Below, in pieces: positions 1 through 6,519 of a stretch of 45,475 nucleotides of DNA. Source of the DNA: Gammaproteobacteria bacterium Ga0074134 (lineage in GTDB: Bacteria; Pseudomonadota; Gammaproteobacteria; Ga0077554; Ga007554). The notes under the pieces were generated by a model. The model did not search any database, was not told where the DNA came from, and saw only the letters and a program-made list of their open reading frames with translations. Position numbers and translations under genes: made by a program. Position 1 is the first letter of the stretch, and the number at the start of each line of letters is the position of its first letter. The DNA lies in contig LNEJ01000057.1 of NCBI GenBank assembly GCA_001464965.1, positions 1-45,475 on the forward strand, given 5' to 3'.

Positions 1-224
1 AGGATCGCCTCGTGCTCGGCGCAAAGCATGCCTAATGGCATCAAAAGCGCTACCGTGTCGTGCCATACCTCTCTTTGCTCAACAGTAAGCCACTCCGGCA
101 TGATGGGCGCGACAGAAATAGGGTTAACTACCGCTTGCACCTCTCTTCCGGCCCTAAAAGTGCCCTGCAATTGCTTCAACTTTGCCGACTTTTTAGGCCG
201 TCCAGCACCAATTTTAGTAATCAT
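1..224 (-). CDS. Phage terminase small subunit, P27 family (N-terminal 74 codons, runs off the left edge)
   Basis: The product would recognise phage or satellite DNA and hand it to the large terminase for packaging. The reading frame is open from an ATG at 224 to the edge. The N-terminus has the basic GRPKKSAKLKQLQGTFR block, followed by a PEWLTVEQREVW segment and a small hydrophobic LMPLGML stretch, the pattern expected at the start of P27-type (Terminase_4) proteins. An AGGAG six bases before the ATG supports this start. The missing C-terminus is beyond the window, where a large terminase or HNH gene would be expected. The family call is by pattern recognition only. Confidence 0.75.
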   Translation of the reverse strand, partial: MITKIGAGRPKKSAKLKQLQGTFRAGREVQAVVNPISVAPIMPEWLTVEQREVWHDTVALLMPLGMLCAEHEAI

Positions 225-311
225 TACCTTCTCCTGATTTCCGAAATATGACAATGCAAAAATTTGACTGCACGCACGCTTTTGGCGCATAAGCCCCAGA
301 GTTTCATGCCC

Positions 312-339
312 CCCCATGGGGTGACCCCATTGTCACCCC
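312..339. other. Two overlapping, mutually exclusive inverted repeats between element genes
   Basis: CCCCATGGGG (312-321) is a perfect palindrome. It shares four bases with a second perfect repeat, GGGGTGAC (318-325) and GTCACCCC (332-339), which has a six-base loop. Both lie in the 128-bp noncoding gap between the coiled-coil ORF and the small terminase. No T-run follows on the minus strand, so a simple terminator is unlikely. A protein-binding site or a switchable RNA structure is possible. The rest of the gap (225-311) shows nothing else clear apart from the ribosome binding site. Confidence 0.4.
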
Positions 340-352
340 GCTCATCTGGCCG

Positions 353-904
353 TTACGCGGCCTTGCGATTCCCGAGATAGTAGTTCAACGCGCACCCTGG
401 CTCGTCTCCTGTTTCATAATCCAAGAAGGCCATCAAGGGCAGTGTCCCGGTTTCAACCCCTATCGCCGCAAGTTGGTGGCGAAACGACGTCTCTTGGCGG
501 TTGGCTTCCCTTAATTGCAAAGCGGCCTCAGCAATCGCGTCGGCTAGCTTTGCATGTTCGGCACGAAGATCCCGGCAGATTGCCCCTGAAATTTCACTGT
601 GCAATTGATTTACCGTCTGGCTTTGCATTTCAATTGCTCGTTCAAGAAGCGTTACTCGTTCTCTGTCACGCAACTCAACCTCGCGCAATGAATCCACGCT
701 GGCAATATCACGCCGCTCTATGACTGCACGGGCTTTGTCATCGTTGTAACCCGTAGTCGCCCAGCTCCCCTGCAAACTGGCTTCTGACGCGGTATGTTCC
801 CGCTGTGCCGCCTGTAACTCCTGGTGCAACTCGGCAAGCCGTTTGCTGGCCGCGTTAAACTCCGGGTTTGAGTTTAGTTTTTGTTTGATCTTATTGATGT
901 CCAT
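353..904 (-). CDS. Hypothetical element protein, largely coiled coil (183 aa)
   Basis: I do not recognise a named family. The protein is strongly charged and helical. Residues ~1-60 and ~75-150 are rich in Glu, Gln, Arg and Leu in a heptad-like pattern, consistent with a coiled coil, and the last ~30 residues (LMAFLDYETGDEPGC region) look globular. There is no signal peptide or membrane segment. The ATG at 904 follows a GGAG with a nine-base spacer. It lies between the frameshifted small ORF and the small terminase, so it may serve packaging or regulation in the element, but no function can be assigned. Confidence 0.7.
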   Translation of the reverse strand: MDINKIKQKLNSNPEFNAASKRLAELHQELQAAQREHTASEASLQGSWATTGYNDDKARAVIERRDIASVDSLREVELRDRERVTLLERAIEMQSQTVNQLHSEISGAICRDLRAEHAKLADAIAEAALQLREANRQETSFRHQLAAIGVETGTLPLMAFLDYETGDEPGCALNYYLGNRKAA

Positions 905-919
905 AATTTTTATCTCCGG

Positions 920-1062
920 TTAACAGGTGCGCCCATTATAGGTCAGGGTAAACTTCGGTGCCGGGCCTTTGCCGCCATCTTCGGGCAGATGCGGTTTAGT
1001 TTAGCCTTGGCCGCAGCATGGCGCTGGGTGGCCTGTAAGGCGGTATATGGCTGTGTTTTCAT
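920..1062 (-). pseudogene. Small element ORF with an apparent -1 frameshift
   Basis: From the ATG at 1062 (preceded by AAGGAACACCTT) the frame encodes MKTQPYTALQATQRHAAAKA and stops at 943 after 39 codons. Near a CCC run (around 983-985) the -1 frame instead continues as PEDGGKGPAPKFTLTYNGRTC and stops at 920. That reading looks more protein-like and ends just before the next gene's ribosome binding site. The simplest reading is a one-base deletion in a run of C. A programmed -1 frameshift or a sequencing error cannot be excluded. Function unknown. Confidence 0.5.
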
Positions 1063-1119
1063 AAGGTGTTCCTTTCTATAATTTCCAGCGCTTTGAGTGC
1101 GGTAGCGCCGGGAAACCGC

Positions 1120-1491
1120 TTAATGTGTTACCTGTCCATGCTGTCCGATGAGCTGCATCAGCTTGAACGGGTCATGCTTTGCCCTATCAATCAGCATCTC
1201 GCAGGTCGCTACATGGCGTATGGCAATCGCCAGAATGACGTGATCCGGGTCGCTCTCAGTGTCGGTGTAGTACGCCCGTTGTATAGCGGGGTTCTCTTCC
1301 AGCAGGGCAATGACTTTTTGCCGCCGGGTTTCCCGCTGTAGCTCCACGAGTATCTCAGCCTTGCCTTGCCTGAGTTGCTGCACCAGTTCGTGTGGCAGGT
1401 TGTCAGCGGGTGAAATATCCAGATAGCCGCCATCCGCCATAATCGAATAGCCCTTGCGCCGGAGATCAAGAATCAACTCGGGTACGCCCAT
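1120..1491 (-). CDS. Hypothetical protein with a TubC-N-like docking fold (123 aa)
   Basis: The first ~55 residues (ELILDLRRKGYSIMADGGYL, then ISPADNLPHELVQQLRQGKAEILVEL) match the small domain first described as the TubC N-terminal docking domain. That domain is common in short proteins next to primases in plasmids and prophages. The remainder is helical with no recognised domain. The ATG lies two bases after the primase stop, so the two are probably translated together. Role in the element is unknown; protein-protein contact with the replication protein is only a guess. Confidence 0.65.
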   Translation of the reverse strand: MGVPELILDLRRKGYSIMADGGYLDISPADNLPHELVQQLRQGKAEILVELQRETRRQKVIALLEENPAIQRAYYTDTESDPDHVILAIAIRHVATCEMLIDRAKHDPFKLMQLIGQHGQVTH

Positions 1492-1493
1492 GA

Positions 1494-3641
1494 TTAAATC
1501 CTCAAGTGAGACGGGTTAGGTGCAGCGGTTGCGGGGGAATCCTCCCGAAGGGGTTCAAATCTCCCGCCGAAGGGGCCGAAGGGGTTCACACTATTTTGTT
1601 GAACCTCTTCGTCCCCTTCGTGAACCTCTTCGTGTTTTCCATTGGGCAAGCTCCAAAACCAAACGCCTTTCATGCCGTCTTTTTTCGATACTACACCCAG
1701 CCGTTTTTTTGCCCTCTTGATAGTCGAAAGCGAAAAACCCGCGCCTTTGCATTCCTGCTCAATGCCTTTTTGCGCCACTGCTCCAGCGGCAAGCGCATCA
1801 CGCAAAAATGCTTCTACACTTGCCCCATCGCTTTCATCTTCTCCGGTGTTTTCTGCCAGCAATTCAGTCGCCGTTCCATCCACCGCTTGCCCCCAAAGTA
1901 CATAGCTGGAAAACACGCCCTTGTGACCGTCAATTTCTTTCTGGTGCAGGTCATATTCAAAGCCACCGCTATCAATCCCAATGTTGCTTTTTGCCCTGCA
2001 AAATATCCGTTTAACTTTACCGCCTTCATTGATCTTGCCCGTTGCCAATACCACCCGCGCCAATGCGGCAAAGGCGAGTGAGCCGGTTACTCTCTCCATC
2101 GGGTCTTTGCCGCCCGTCCCTTTGGAAAAGTGAGAAATACCTAACACGGCACAACCCAGCTTTTCACCAAAATCAACCAGTGGTTGTAATGCGCGCCGCA
2201 CCTCGCCGTTTTTGTGACTGTCCCCAGCAACCGCGTTGACAACAGGATCAACCAGTAGCAAAACAACATTGCCAACCCTTTCAGCAGCATCCATCATGGC
2301 GCTTATGTCCGTTGCTGGATCAAAGCTGCGCACCTCGCCCCCGTGTTGAACATCACCGATAAAATGCACCTTTGTCATATCCGCGCCAGCGGCAAGCAAT
2401 CTAGGCACTAGCGTATCTTTCGCGCTATCTTCTCCTGACCATATCAGCACGTTACCCACCGGTGCGCGTGTGCCGTCTGGAAAACGCCCACCTATGCTTA
2501 TCGTTGCAATAATAGTGATTGCGATAGTGGTCTTGCAGGTACCCGCCATGCCCGCAAAAATATGGAATTTTCCACGCGCCAACCACCCAACCCATATCCA
2601 GCGGATTGCTTCGGGCTTGATGTCGGCAGCACACGTTATCTGCACCTGTGGCAAAGGGTTAGGCTTGCCCTTCTTGTGCAGTCCTACAGGGCCACCAGTT
2701 GCGTTTGTTTGTCCATGTGGGGTCATTGCATTACCCGAATCCAGAGCACCCGCTATGGCGCGTTTAACGGCTTCCAGCCCTTGCGCTTGATGCAGGTCGT
2801 TAAAGTCGGTTGCCCCGTCCGGTCGGTCTGTGCCAAAGTCGGGTTTTGCCAGCAGTCCACCCACCGCCCGCGCCGCTTCGGTTGCTTTGGTCAATCCGGG
2901 GTTGCCCTCGGTTTGGCTGTCATCATCGGCGCACACAATCAGGGGCAGGGCGGGGAATTTCTCGAGCATGGCCTTTGTCACCGCCAGCAGGTTACCGGCA
3001 TTGAAAGCCACGGCCACCGGGTAGCCGGTCGCCTCATGAATGCTTGCACCAGTTGCGAAGCCTTCACATACGCACAGCGCCGCCGCGCCCTTCATGGTGC
3101 CGATACCGAAATAACAGCCCGCCACGCGCCCACCGGCTAAAAACTTTTTGTTTCCATCCTGCCCGATAAATTGTATGGAATGAAGTTTGCCTTCGGCCCG
3201 CATCGGGACAACCAGCTTTCCTTGATACAGTTTTGCGCCGTGCGATTTAATGCGCTTGCGGATCAGGTAAGCATGATCGTCTGTCTCAGATTGTGCCGTG
3301 TTGTCGATTGCTACCGCTTTAGTCTGGGCTTCGGCCTGCTGTTCTTTTCTGGCGGTATCAGCCTGCTTTCTCGCTTCCTCAATATGGCGCTTGAACGCTT
3401 CACGTTCAGACTGTGAAAAAGGCTTTTCACGCTTCGCCTGCCAGTCAGTAGAAAAGCCCGTCGAGTAATCGCCATAGATGCCGCCCATGCCGTCAGGAAA
3501 CAGCTTGCACCAGCCCGCCTTGTTTCTGCTTCCTTTGCCTTCGCCGGGGAATTTGTGGAACTTGTCCGGCTCGATTATTGCCGGGGGTGTCAGGCCAGCC
3601 GATTGGATTGCATCGCGAAATTGTGAGGGTGCGTCAAGCAT
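1494..3641 (-). CDS. Element replication protein: TOPRIM primase fused to a RecA-like helicase (RepA type), with altered P-loop
   Basis: The protein (715 aa) would prime and unwind element DNA. Residues ~10-65 resemble the DNA-binding start of phage primases, ~115-290 form a TOPRIM-like region (VCEGFATGASIHEATG, then IVCADDD), and ~350-580 form an AAA_25/RepA-type ATPase with VVLLLVDPVVNAV as Walker B and a GISHFSKG motif. A winged-helix-like region follows near 640-690. The P-loop reads GMAGTCKTT: Cys369 replaces the conserved glycine before Lys370 (codon at 2535-2537). The ATG at 3641 follows GGAGG and overlaps the upstream ORF by 8 bases; a longer upstream frame was rejected because it lacks a site and homologous sequence. 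The C-terminal tail contains short Glu/Val-rich repeats. Confidence 0.85.
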   Translation of the reverse strand: MLDAPSQFRDAIQSAGLTPPAIIEPDKFHKFPGEGKGSRNKAGWCKLFPDGMGGIYGDYSTGFSTDWQAKREKPFSQSEREAFKRHIEEARKQADTARKEQQAEAQTKAVAIDNTAQSETDDHAYLIRKRIKSHGAKLYQGKLVVPMRAEGKLHSIQFIGQDGNKKFLAGGRVAGCYFGIGTMKGAAALCVCEGFATGASIHEATGYPVAVAFNAGNLLAVTKAMLEKFPALPLIVCADDDSQTEGNPGLTKATEAARAVGGLLAKPDFGTDRPDGATDFNDLHQAQGLEAVKRAIAGALDSGNAMTPHGQTNATGGPVGLHKKGKPNPLPQVQITCAADIKPEAIRWIWVGWLARGKFHIFAGMAGTCKTTIAITIIATISIGGRFPDGTRAPVGNVLIWSGEDSAKDTLVPRLLAAGADMTKVHFIGDVQHGGEVRSFDPATDISAMMDAAERVGNVVLLLVDPVVNAVAGDSHKNGEVRRALQPLVDFGEKLGCAVLGISHFSKGTGGKDPMERVTGSLAFAALARVVLATGKINEGGKVKRIFCRAKSNIGIDSGGFEYDLHQKEIDGHKGVFSSYVLWGQAVDGTATELLAENTGEDESDGASVEAFLRDALAAGAVAQKGIEQECKGAGFSLSTIKRAKKRLGVVSKKDGMKGVWFWSLPNGKHEEVHEGDEEVQQNSVNPFGPFGGRFEPLREDSPATAAPNPSHLRI

Positions 3642-3825
3642 TGCGCAGTCCTCCCCGGCGAATGATCCAGGCCGCAACAGGAATGGGCAGCAGCCCACAC
3701 ACGGCAAGGCGCACGACTAAGGCTTTAAGTTTGCTGCTGAATGGGCTATAATTGCACTTGACAGTCGCAATACCATAACCCGCCACCGGCGTCATCCGGG
3801 GGGCGGGTTTTTTATGGGCGGTCAT
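3634..3825 (-). CDS. Small conserved element protein with a hydrophobic segment (63 aa)
   Basis: The ATG at 3825 overlaps the stop codon of the AlpA-like gene (TAATG) and the end overlaps the primase start by 8 bases, so the ORF is sandwiched in a coupled operon. A basic N-terminal part (TAHKKPAPRMTPVAGYGIATV) is followed by a hydrophobic stretch (VVRLAVCGLLPIPVAAWII) and a short basic tail. I recall similar small ORFs ahead of primase genes in other integrated elements, but no function is known to me. It could be a small membrane protein, or its main role could be translational coupling. Confidence 0.6.
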   Translation of the reverse strand: MTAHKKPAPRMTPVAGYGIATVKCNYSPFSSKLKALVVRLAVCGLLPIPVAAWIIRRGGLRNA

Positions 3826-4040
3826 TATACGCCTCCACTCAGCAGCGCACGAATTGCAGCAGTTGGCCACGCAAGGCGGCCATTTATGCGGATCGGTTTA
3901 AGTGGGCCATTCTCAAGGCTGGCCCAACATCTCAATGTTTGCGGCTGTCGGTTTAGGTAAAATGCACCGGCGCTCGTTGGGACAGTTGGGCTGGTTACTT
4001 GCTCCAGCGGTGTGAAAATAGGACTTGCTACAGTTTTCAT
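3825..4040 (-). CDS. AlpA-like helix-turn-helix regulator/excisionase (71 aa)
   Basis: The core from residue ~22, SAGAFYLNRQPQTLRCWA, is a MerR/AlpA-type winged helix, and NGRLAWPTAAIRALL closes the domain. Small proteins of this type activate the integrase or act as excision factors in P4-like satellites and islands. The gene heads the replication operon and sits between the unknown 210-aa gene and the primase block. The ATG at 4040 follows AAGGTGG. A likely target is the palindrome over the integrase -10 box at 6354-6371, an inference from position only. Confidence 0.7.
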   Translation of the reverse strand: MKTVASPIFTPLEQVTSPTVPTSAGAFYLNRQPQTLRCWASLENGPLKPIRINGRLAWPTAAIRALLSGGV

Positions 4041-4158
4041 AGTGAACCACCTTTAGCCTTGCGGCGTTGTTTAGGATGGTTCAGGTTAATGGATTTAGGA
4101 AGCTACTACACGGGGACAAAACCTGCCCCCCAGACTTATATGCAAAATAAGTGAGATG

Positions 4159-4791
4159 TCAGAACGGCCAGAAGCCCTTTTCTTTTTCTGCCTTAATTGC
4201 TTTGCGCAATATGCGGTAAAGATCGGCCAATGGTGATCGCTTTGTTGGAATGCAGTCTTTCTTTTTACGATTGCTAGTGCGTCCTACACGCTCAAACATC
4301 CCAGCCGCAAAATTCTGGAATGGTGACAATTTTACACCTCTGTTATTTATGGTAGGTTTGCTCTTTGTTGATTTTATCCAGTAGCCCACAAGGTTCTGTG
4401 CAAAATAATTATCAATCTCGGCAATCCCTGGTGCGCCGCCTGTTTGCTTTGGCATGGATCGTAAGGCCTCCGCCGCAGCCTCCCTTATCAAGTCGGGTGG
4501 ACATTTAAAATTGCTGTCTTTAAATTCCCCGGATGGATGTTTTGCTTTAAATATTTGATACTCGCCGCGCAGTAGCTCGCACTCGGTCGAGTTGTCAATA
4601 AGTTTTATCGCTTGTGAAACCTCTGTATCGTCGGCTTTTGCCAGGGCGCGTAATGTGGCCTTTATATCTCGCGTGGAAGGGTTCTCAAGAAGATCCTCGT
4701 ACATGCTACGAAAGGATTGAATTATATCCGCAAGATCGGGATGGAGTTCAGCATCCTTTTGGTTTTGCGTAATCACCGATCCAGCAACCAA
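4159..4791 (-). CDS. Unknown element protein between integrase and AlpA (210 aa)
   Basis: I do not recognise it. It is soluble and mostly helical, with a Lys/Arg-rich C-terminal third (RTSNRKKKDCIPTKRS and a KAIKAEKEKGFWPF end) that could bind nucleic acid. Lys, Asn, Ile and Phe are more frequent than in neighbouring chromosomal proteins, hinting at separate origin. The start is unclear: TTG at 4791 has no good ribosome binding site, and the frame stays open a further ~33 codons upstream without ATG or GTG. This slot in satellites often carries cargo such as anti-phage genes, but no such domain is visible here. Confidence 0.6.
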   Translation of the reverse strand: MVAGSVITQNQKDAELHPDLADIIQSFRSMYEDLLENPSTRDIKATLRALAKADDTEVSQAIKLIDNSTECELLRGEYQIFKAKHPSGEFKDSNFKCPPDLIREAAAEALRSMPKQTGGAPGIAEIDNYFAQNLVGYWIKSTKSKPTINNRGVKLSPFQNFAAGMFERVGRTSNRKKKDCIPTKRSPLADLYRILRKAIKAEKEKGFWPF

Positions 4792-4954
4792 CGCTTGTTG
4801 GGTGTGGTTCAGTCCGTAGCTTACGGCCTTGTTTATAAGTGATCTTGGGTCTCAATCTGTACCCCCTTCATGTGCAGCCTTCAAAAAAGGAGCCGCGCCA
4901 GGCCGGTGAAGGTTTCCGGCTTTTCGCCCCGTCGGGCTAGGTGCGGCAAACTCG

Positions 4955-6301
4955 TTATGCCACTACGCGCAAGCCCAGTTTCACGGGCACAAATTCAATT
5001 CCTGCCTGCTCCAAGATCCACGCTTCAATTTTGACGTGCCACATGCGCAACAGGTCGAGCGGGCGGCGGATATAGTTTTGCTCACGCACACCTTGCGGCG
5101 CGTGCCCCTGTATCTGTGCAGCGATTCCGGCGGGTGTTTCTGTCCACTCGCACAGACTGGCAAAGCTACGGCGCAACCCGTGCAAGGTCATATCCAGGCC
5201 AGCAACAGCGCAGGCTTTATGGTGGGCTGCACGGGGGTCTGTAAGGCGTCCAGATGCAGCGGTGGGGCTATTGAACACCCACTCACTACGTCGCGGCAGT
5301 GAGGCCAGCAGGTGCGCCACGTAAGGCGTTAATGGCACCACGCGCAATCCTTCCACCTTGTCTTTTATGGTCAGGCTGTTCCACTGAAAATCCACGTCCT
5401 CCCATCGCAGCTTTGCCAATTCTTCCCGGCGTGAACCGATGAGCAAAAGGGTTTGCAAATAGGCACTAATTACCGGGTTTCCGATTTGCTTTACGGCGGC
5501 AAACCATGCCGGTAGTTGTTCCCGCTGTAACACATCATTTTTTGGTTTTGCCTTGCCCAGACTTTCGCGGGCATCCCTGCTTTGCGCGGCGTTGGTCGTG
5601 ATGATTGCCTTATAGGTGGGGTGTCTGGCGCACCAGAATAAGAACGCCTTCAATAAGCGCAATGCCAAGCGGGCGCGTGTCGGTCTTTTCGTGCTTTCGA
5701 CTTTCGCCCATTCGGCCAGCCTGTCGGGTGTCAGGTCAACAAGGCGAACCGCTGCCAGCGATGCAAGCGTGCCGGGCATTGTCAGCTTGGGGCTTCGGGT
5801 TCTTTGTTTGCCACCGGCCTGCATGGCCTTTATGTGGTCATGATGATGTGCTTCGCTCCACAGCAGTTTCCGTGCGGCGATATATTCCAGCCAGGCCATG
5901 CCCAGCGTTACCGATTCGCGGGCTTCCTGCATCACCAGCGCGGCGGCTTGCGCTTCCTTGGCCAGCTTCGCCGCTTTCTTGTTGGCTTCATTGTCGGCCT
6001 TCACCTGGCGCGGATCGTTGCCTTGGTCAATTTGGATTTGCAGGCGGCGGGCTTCGGCTTGGGCGGCGGAAATACTCCACACGCTCACATCACCAATTGT
6101 GACGCGCATGGATTGCCCCTTAACCTTGGTTTGAAATATGTAGGACTTTGCACCCTTGACGGTCGCCCGAACGGCCAGCCCCGCCGGGTCATCGCACCAA
6201 AGGAAGGCTTGCGCTTTATCCTTGGGGCATTGAAAGTCTGTAATGCGCCCGGCAGTCAATTTCACCTTTACCGCTTTGACTATCGTTTTCACCTTTCCCA
6301 T
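4955..6301 (-). CDS. int: Tyrosine recombinase (P4-type integrase)
   Basis: Integrates and, with an excision factor, excises the element at tRNA-Phe. The 448-aa protein has an N-terminal DUF4102-type arm-binding region, a core-binding region (~130-250) and a catalytic domain. The catalytic residues are visible: Arg291 (GSRREEL), His374 and Arg377 (HGLRRSF), a later GH (IQGHAP) and the nucleophile Tyr410 (QNYIRRP). I chose the ATG at 6301 because a G-run lies directly upstream; an in-frame ATG at 6328 gives nine more residues but has no good site. It lies 171 bp inside the truncated tRNA-Phe copy. Confidence 0.93.
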   Translation of the reverse strand: MGKVKTIVKAVKVKLTAGRITDFQCPKDKAQAFLWCDDPAGLAVRATVKGAKSYIFQTKVKGQSMRVTIGDVSVWSISAAQAEARRLQIQIDQGNDPRQVKADNEANKKAAKLAKEAQAAALVMQEARESVTLGMAWLEYIAARKLLWSEAHHHDHIKAMQAGGKQRTRSPKLTMPGTLASLAAVRLVDLTPDRLAEWAKVESTKRPTRARLALRLLKAFLFWCARHPTYKAIITTNAAQSRDARESLGKAKPKNDVLQREQLPAWFAAVKQIGNPVISAYLQTLLLIGSRREELAKLRWEDVDFQWNSLTIKDKVEGLRVVPLTPYVAHLLASLPRRSEWVFNSPTAASGRLTDPRAAHHKACAVAGLDMTLHGLRRSFASLCEWTETPAGIAAQIQGHAPQGVREQNYIRRPLDLLRMWHVKIEAWILEQAGIEFVPVKLGLRVVA

Positions 6302-6353
6302 GTTGCCCCCCTGAATTTTAACCGCCATGTAACCAGTATGTAACCGCTTTTGC

Positions 6354-6382
6354 AGTATAGCGCGGTATACTTATCAACACAA
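6354..6382 (-). promoter_or_regulatory. Probable int promoter with palindromic operator over the -10 box
   Basis: On the minus strand TTGTGT (6377-6382) and TATACT (6354-6359) are separated by 17 bases. AGTATA and TATACT flank a six-base centre on the plus strand (6354-6371), making a perfect dyad over the -10 box. The start codon lies 50 bases downstream. The dyad could bind the AlpA-like protein or another regulator of excision. No other gene lies between here and the att site. Confidence 0.45.
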
Positions 6383-6471
6383 CAAACAGGGGTACTTTGT
6401 TAACCGATTGTTTTACTTGAAAACCGTCTTTTTCATGAATGGCAATCAACGGGCAAAAACATGATTTCATG

Positions 6472-6519
6472 CGGATTGAAAATCCCCGTGTCGGCGGTTC
6501 GATTCCGTCCCTGGCACCA
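6472..6519 (+). other. attR: duplicated 3' half of tRNA-Phe (anticodon GAA to CCA)
   Basis: From the anticodon arm on, the sequence reads as tRNA-Phe: the GAA anticodon in GGATTGAAAATCCCC, then a variable loop, the GGTTCGATTCC T-arm and an acceptor strand ending CCCTGGCACCA. The 5' half needed to pair with it (a GCCAGGG start and D-arm) is absent, so this is not a functional gene. Element integrases that cut in the anticodon loop leave exactly this partial copy. The intact tRNA-Phe should lie to the left of the element, outside the window. Confidence 0.85.

Follow-up and report, generated by a model that had tools for sequence, protein, structure and literature searches.

The first 6.5 kb of contig LNEJ01000057.1 from Gammaproteobacteria bacterium Ga0074134 raise the question of what kind of mobile element joins an integrase at a tRNA gene and a replication gene to a phage terminase small subunit (TerS), and in whose particles such an element would travel. 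The window, which is the whole stretch analysed (45,475 nt), corresponds to contig C57 of a 2.9-Mb genome in 80 contigs, and its base 1 is base 1 of C57; therefore, nothing further to the left exists in this contig. Known proteobacterial PICIs redirect packaging via helper-type cos sites and Rpp, and capsid-forming PICIs (cf-PICIs) bring a whole head. A preliminary description of the locus had proposed the latter type. We consider it most probable, at about 0.68, that the element is a PICI-like phage satellite at tRNA-Phe which has its own TerS and a cos-like site and obtains all else from a helper.

Gene content of the element

The features of the element are as follows, the last one being on contig C75.

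1-224, minus strand: P27-type terminase small subunit (TerS1), first 74 aa, cut by the contig start (phrog_83, E = 6e-8; own P27 HMM, E = 6e-6)
238-321, minus strand: cos-like block just upstream of TerS1, with a G7 run at 309-315, then AGTCAAATTTTT and CGGAAA
353-904, minus strand: ORF of 183 aa, coiled-coil-like, no significant family match
1120-1491, minus strand: TubC_N-domain protein of 123 aa, directly after the primase (PF18563 above cut-off)
1494-3707, minus strand: Toprim-AAA_25 primase-helicase (Toprim and AAA_25 domains; phrog_2249, E = 3e-76)
3825-4040, minus strand: HTH-like protein of 71 aa in the alpA position, with homologues ahead of the primase in loci L302 and L274
4159-4791, minus strand: ORF of 210 aa between int and the HTH-like protein, no family match
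4878-4947, minus strand: int-alpA RNA (Rfam RF02996), directly after int (76.3 bits, E = 4.7e-15)
4955-6328, minus strand: tyrosine integrase (PF13356, PF00589, phrog_1)
6327-6345, plus strand: integrase arm-type repeat of 19 bp, ATGTAACCAGTATGTAACC, identical to C75:13386-13404
6473-6519, plus strand: attR, a 47-nt copy of the tRNA-Phe 3' end from anticodon arm to CCA, matching C75:13282-13329 with one gap
C75:13457-13693, minus strand: second TerS-like fragment (TerS2), 3' end, 78 aa (phrog_83, E = 0.005; own P27 HMM, E = 0.002)

The seven genes called in the left part of the element are all on the minus strand and run in one direction from int, as in PICIs. The order integrase, HTH-like protein, primase-helicase and P27-type TerS, which had been proposed from the sequence alone, is borne out in the window, and the integrase, primase-helicase and small terminase are each confirmed by family matches. 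The claimed AlpA-like regulator holds only in part, as the 71-aa protein is in the right place but matches nothing in Pfam even at E = 10, nor any PHROG family, so that it is AlpA-like by position only; its structure model is too poor for a comparison with AlpA (pLDDT 47). The int-alpA RNA provides independent support for a satellite-type int/alpA layout.

The primase-helicase supplies the replication gene that is characteristic of Gram-negative PICIs, though its Walker A motif reads GMAGTCKT where relatives have GTGKT (Gly-to-Cys). By E-value, the primase of AH14b is its best match among the listed phage records. The TubC_N slot after the primase is also seen in islands of a sister-genus MAG, Thiodiazotropha and Gallionella. 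The window ORFs yielded nothing relevant when searched for defense functions, no conjugation or relaxase genes were found among the seven genes of this part of the window, and no phage structural or lytic genes are annotated in these 6.5 kb or in the 440 bp of the left end on C75.

Ends of the element and the tRNA-Phe site

The right boundary lies at a copy of the tRNA-Phe 3' end, as had been claimed, and ARAGORN calls no tRNA there. As a DNA query against the genome, this boundary finds a single further place, C75:13282-13337, and the intact tRNA-Phe that was anticipated at the other end is located on this separate contig (C75:13254-13329). The arm repeat is perfect over its 19 bp and lies inside both ends, 56 bp from the left att copy and about 130 bp from the right one (score 40 vs. 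a shuffle maximum of 27). The att copies and the ATGTAACCAGTATGTAACC repeats fit the core and arm sites of one integrase, and the element thus has an integrase and att repeats at a chromosomal site, which is another trait of Gram-negative PICIs.

A join of C75 to the window by assembly was considered and dropped. The window start is a unique contig end, one of 19 among 150 ends, and a search for an IS flank that carries a matching target duplication gave none; therefore, the size of the C57-C75 gap is not fixed. An empty-site comparison was also abandoned, as tRNA-Phe in two sister genomes holds other integrases and the window-side flank was not found beside tRNA-Phe. The position of tRNA-Phe behind dgt is conserved in sister genomes. 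The two tRNA-Phe loci (L363:16426-16501 and L364:2871-2946) hold different integrases and represent an integration hotspot of the genus.

TerS genes at both ends

TerS1 starts at 224 with an ATG that follows an AGGAG-type RBS, and both frame and RBS are intact over the sequenced part. It has 32% protein identity to the TerS of a second island in the same genome (on contig C30), and no close relatives of it were found among phages or plasmids. TerS2 is located some 130 bp inward of the left att site in the same direction as the window genes, and none of 500 shuffles reached the score with which it aligns to the C30 TerS. It is cut by a multicopy IS, an end of which is present at 25 contig ends. 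The possibility that TerS1 and the C75 fragment are halves of one gene was rejected, since their P27 cores overlap, and they are therefore two genes. Given the IS in the second TerS and the Gly-to-Cys change in Walker A, this copy of the element is probably decaying.

The cos-like block

The second island (L102:10993-19400) contains an int-alpA RNA, an integrase, a related primase and a P27 TerS (PF05119, E = 6e-17) that is not followed by TerL. Ahead of this TerS, C30:62811-62894 matches the block upstream of TerS1 at 75% ungapped identity over 84 bp (score 63 vs. a shuffle maximum of 28). A G-run, the stretch TAAATCTCTACAGC, of which the window has a degenerate form, AGTCARATTTTTGCA and, ahead of the RBS, the dyad TTTCNGAAA make up the block, and the parts of the C30-type block include the G-run and AGTCARATTTTT. 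Between these two islands of one genome, the block is better conserved than the TerS protein, a pattern as would be expected of a DNA site.

The pattern GGGNGGGTNAAATCTCTACAGC was taken from the C30 block, having been chosen without phage data, and was scanned against IMG/VR. It matched 26 contigs, in most of which a TerS start follows 73-103 bp downstream, and nine of the ten downstream ORFs submitted were terminase small subunits by PHROG. Judged from these matches, the C30 block is the predicted cos region of P27-type phages. In Klebsiella ST101-KPC2phi6.3, a G-run, TCAAATC, GTCAATTTTTT and CGCGAAA precede TerS; HK97 has part of the same anatomy ahead of its TerS, and the ends of its linear record fall between G-run and TerS. 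A similar layout is seen in other P27-type phages.

An HMM built from phage cos regions only detects the C30 block at E = 2e-5, a value which is partly circular because the pattern that selected the phage regions came from C30; the window copy is not detected by this HMM. The C30 TerS is preceded by a cos region as matched by the pattern scan, and the window copy is tied to it by the 75% identity over 84 bp. Since the phage regions reach C30 but not the window, we infer through C30 that the window block is a probable diverged cos region. A composite motif (G-run, then GTCARATTTTT) has only two sites in 1.98 Mb, those of the window and C30. Likewise, the motif GYAGTCARATTTTTGCATTGTCA occurs only at the two sites of this genome among viral contigs and 369 genomes of the class, with none in the 368 others. 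Direct BLAST of the window block against phages gave no match, and no helper prophage with this block was found in the genome. Together with the lack of the motif in the 368 other genomes, the latter speaks against the satellite reading.

In both islands, the block (window 3-317 and 238-321) can be read in frame as ACSQIFALS. Within it, the islands show two differences, both synonymous, and a short leader peptide is therefore possible. The C30 island has a HipA-type gene nearby, and its cos and TerS are on the strand opposite to the primase. An inverted repeat of 46 nt (83%) is present at its TerS end and upstream of int; no att sites of this island were found.

Related islands and the origin of TerS

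An alternative, which we regard as improbable, is that the element is an ordinary integrative island with a dead piece of cos-TerS acquired from a prophage, so that TerS no longer serves packaging. The distribution of TerS lends it some weight, as most of the 80 related-primase loci examined are without a recognised TerS, and phrog_83 TerS was found in only 3 of 50 genomes with a related primase. The sister-genus island, in which the primase is 70% identical, is also without TerS and without head genes; it spans about 8 kb between tRNA-Ala/tRNA-Glu and host genes and contains an integrase, a toxin-antitoxin-like pair, AlpA (PF05930), the primase, TubC_N and two ORFs. The signs of decay in Walker A and the IS insertion would also suit a captured fragment. 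Against this, TerS lies downstream of a related primase in at least six other islands and belongs there to two unrelated families; a Terminase_2 TerS occupies the slot after the primase in three Thiodiazotropha-type and two Nitrosospira islands. The presence of both P27 and Terminase_2 in this slot indicates that TerS was recruited there from at least two unrelated families. The intact frame and RBS of TerS1 and the cos-like block common to two islands of one genome also argue against a dead fragment.

Tentatively, these islands might belong to a proteobacterial satellite lineage with a self-contained TerS and cos pair, without TerL or heads, in which a fixed post-primase slot would have been filled independently by P27 and Terminase_2, letting each element choose the terminase class of its helper; we hold this broader idea to be somewhat less probable than its opposite.

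The islands of Thiodiazotropha and similar symbionts (L229:6199-16913, L278 and L300) have the order int, orf, AlpA/HTH, primase, TubC_N or similar and Terminase_2 TerS, after which a protein of about 1300 aa follows (phrog_9880 in L229). In Burkholderiaceae, an island beside a dusA-like gene (L268:7725-16916, JAGXFR010000025.1) contains a related primase, a prohead protease, an HK97 capsid and a P27 TerS, with no TerL or portal seen. A 145-aa ORF after this TerS is TerS-like by eye and has no Pfam match. The partial head set of this island is perhaps a Ccm-like tool for capsid size.

Head genes

The preliminary description expected portal, protease, capsid and large terminase genes to the left of TerS1, and this part of it is not supported. 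The searchable 2.9-Mb assembly gave no match to portal (PF04860), TerL (PF03354), HK97 capsid (PF05065) or prohead protease (PF04586), and each of the four families was detected in three to four control genomes. The searchable assembly excludes five contigs present as N, each of ≤2.5 kb and 7.3 kb in total, some of which may be rRNA since no 16S rRNA was found in the searchable assembly. As the C57-C75 gap is unsequenced and these 7.3 kb are present as N, the exclusion of the capsid-forming reading is strong but not absolute.

A capsid-forming PICI with its head and TerL genes in the unassembled gap, the size of which may leave room for them, is very unlikely. The gene order int, HTH, primase and TerS would agree with it, and in L341, a viral contig of 15.6 kb that contains the C30-type cos motif, TerS is followed by ORFs that resemble large terminase, portal, protease and capsid by size alone. 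However, a head module of about 5.5 kb exceeds any of the N contigs, the largest of which is 2.5 kb, and TerS2 sits where the far end of a capsid module would be expected. Just as unlikely is a full prophage that has been lost except for replication genes, cos and terS. Cos and TerS are phage parts, but satellites and islands typically have this order of int, alpA-position gene and primase together with the int-alpA RNA. Furthermore, none of the four HK97-type head families was found in the searchable assembly, and both att ends are present around a short content.

What stands of the earlier proposal is thus its well supported reading as a phage satellite, with integrase, int-alpA RNA, primase, TubC_N, TerS and cos-like site between att repeats, and not its capsid-forming part.

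Comparison with known satellites

By definition, cf-PICIs encode capsid, protease, portal, connectors, TerL, TerS and HNH (PMC10690885). The element shares with them int, a gene in the regulator position, primase and a P27-type TerS with a probable HK97-type cos region, but is without portal, TerL, capsid and protease in the searchable assembly, outside of which the C57-C75 gap lies. The Gram-negative PICIs EcCICFT073 and PmCI172 have int, an alpA/merR-type regulator, primase, one transcription direction and a host att, and some Gram-negative PICIs carry terS (PMC6092414). Gene order, direction and att in the host are the same in the element, whereas its host lineage is outside Enterobacteriaceae and Pasteurellaceae and its regulator is not recognisable as AlpA. 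Gram-negative PICIs are further characterised by att sites that prophages never use, by a lack of structural or lytic phage genes, and by induction and packaging through a helper phage. EcCICFT073 has helper cosN sites and no TerS (PMC6092414), unlike the element, which pairs TerS with a cos-like site and in which no TerL was found.

PICMI is a minimal satellite that has int, alpA and primase among its roughly six genes and none for capsid remodelling (PMC10803314). It has the minimal int/alpA-position/primase plan in common with the element but is without terS or a recognised cos/pac site, has another primase type and sits by fis. The Pseudomonas satellite AH14b, which is packaged in the capsids of its helper (PMC4936722), has an integrase, AlpA and a Toprim primase homologous to that of the window; unlike the element, it is 16.8 kb long and without a terminase gene. 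We call the element PICI-like because a defining cf-PICI trait was not found, the order and direction of Gram-negative PICIs fit while its host is outside those reported for them and its regulator is only a putative one, and PICMI and AH14b are without TerS. No earlier description of satellites with TerS plus cos was found in the open-access literature.

Proposed packaging and its implications

The integrase recombined at the tRNA-Phe 3' end and left att and arm repeats at both ends. In the satellite reading, the HTH-like protein may aid excision, and once an HK97/P27-type cos phage infects the cell, the excised element would be amplified by the primase-helicase. Its own TerS, encoded behind the cos-like block, would bind this adjacent site and recruit the large terminase of the helper, whereupon the element DNA would be cut at the cos-like site and packed into helper heads. 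If so, TerS plus its own site would represent only the specificity half of the motor, a cos-phage counterpart of the pac-type SaPI strategy, and satellites would be extended to a proteobacterial lineage of groundwater type that has received little study. Such elements may be searched for cheaply with the C30 cos pattern, as a P27 cos and TerS without TerL after it, near an int-alpA RNA.

Two more copies of the int-alpA RNA region are present in this genome, at C72:41269-41336 and C53:530-587 (84-86% identity), suggesting that it may harbor up to four int-alpA islands or relics.
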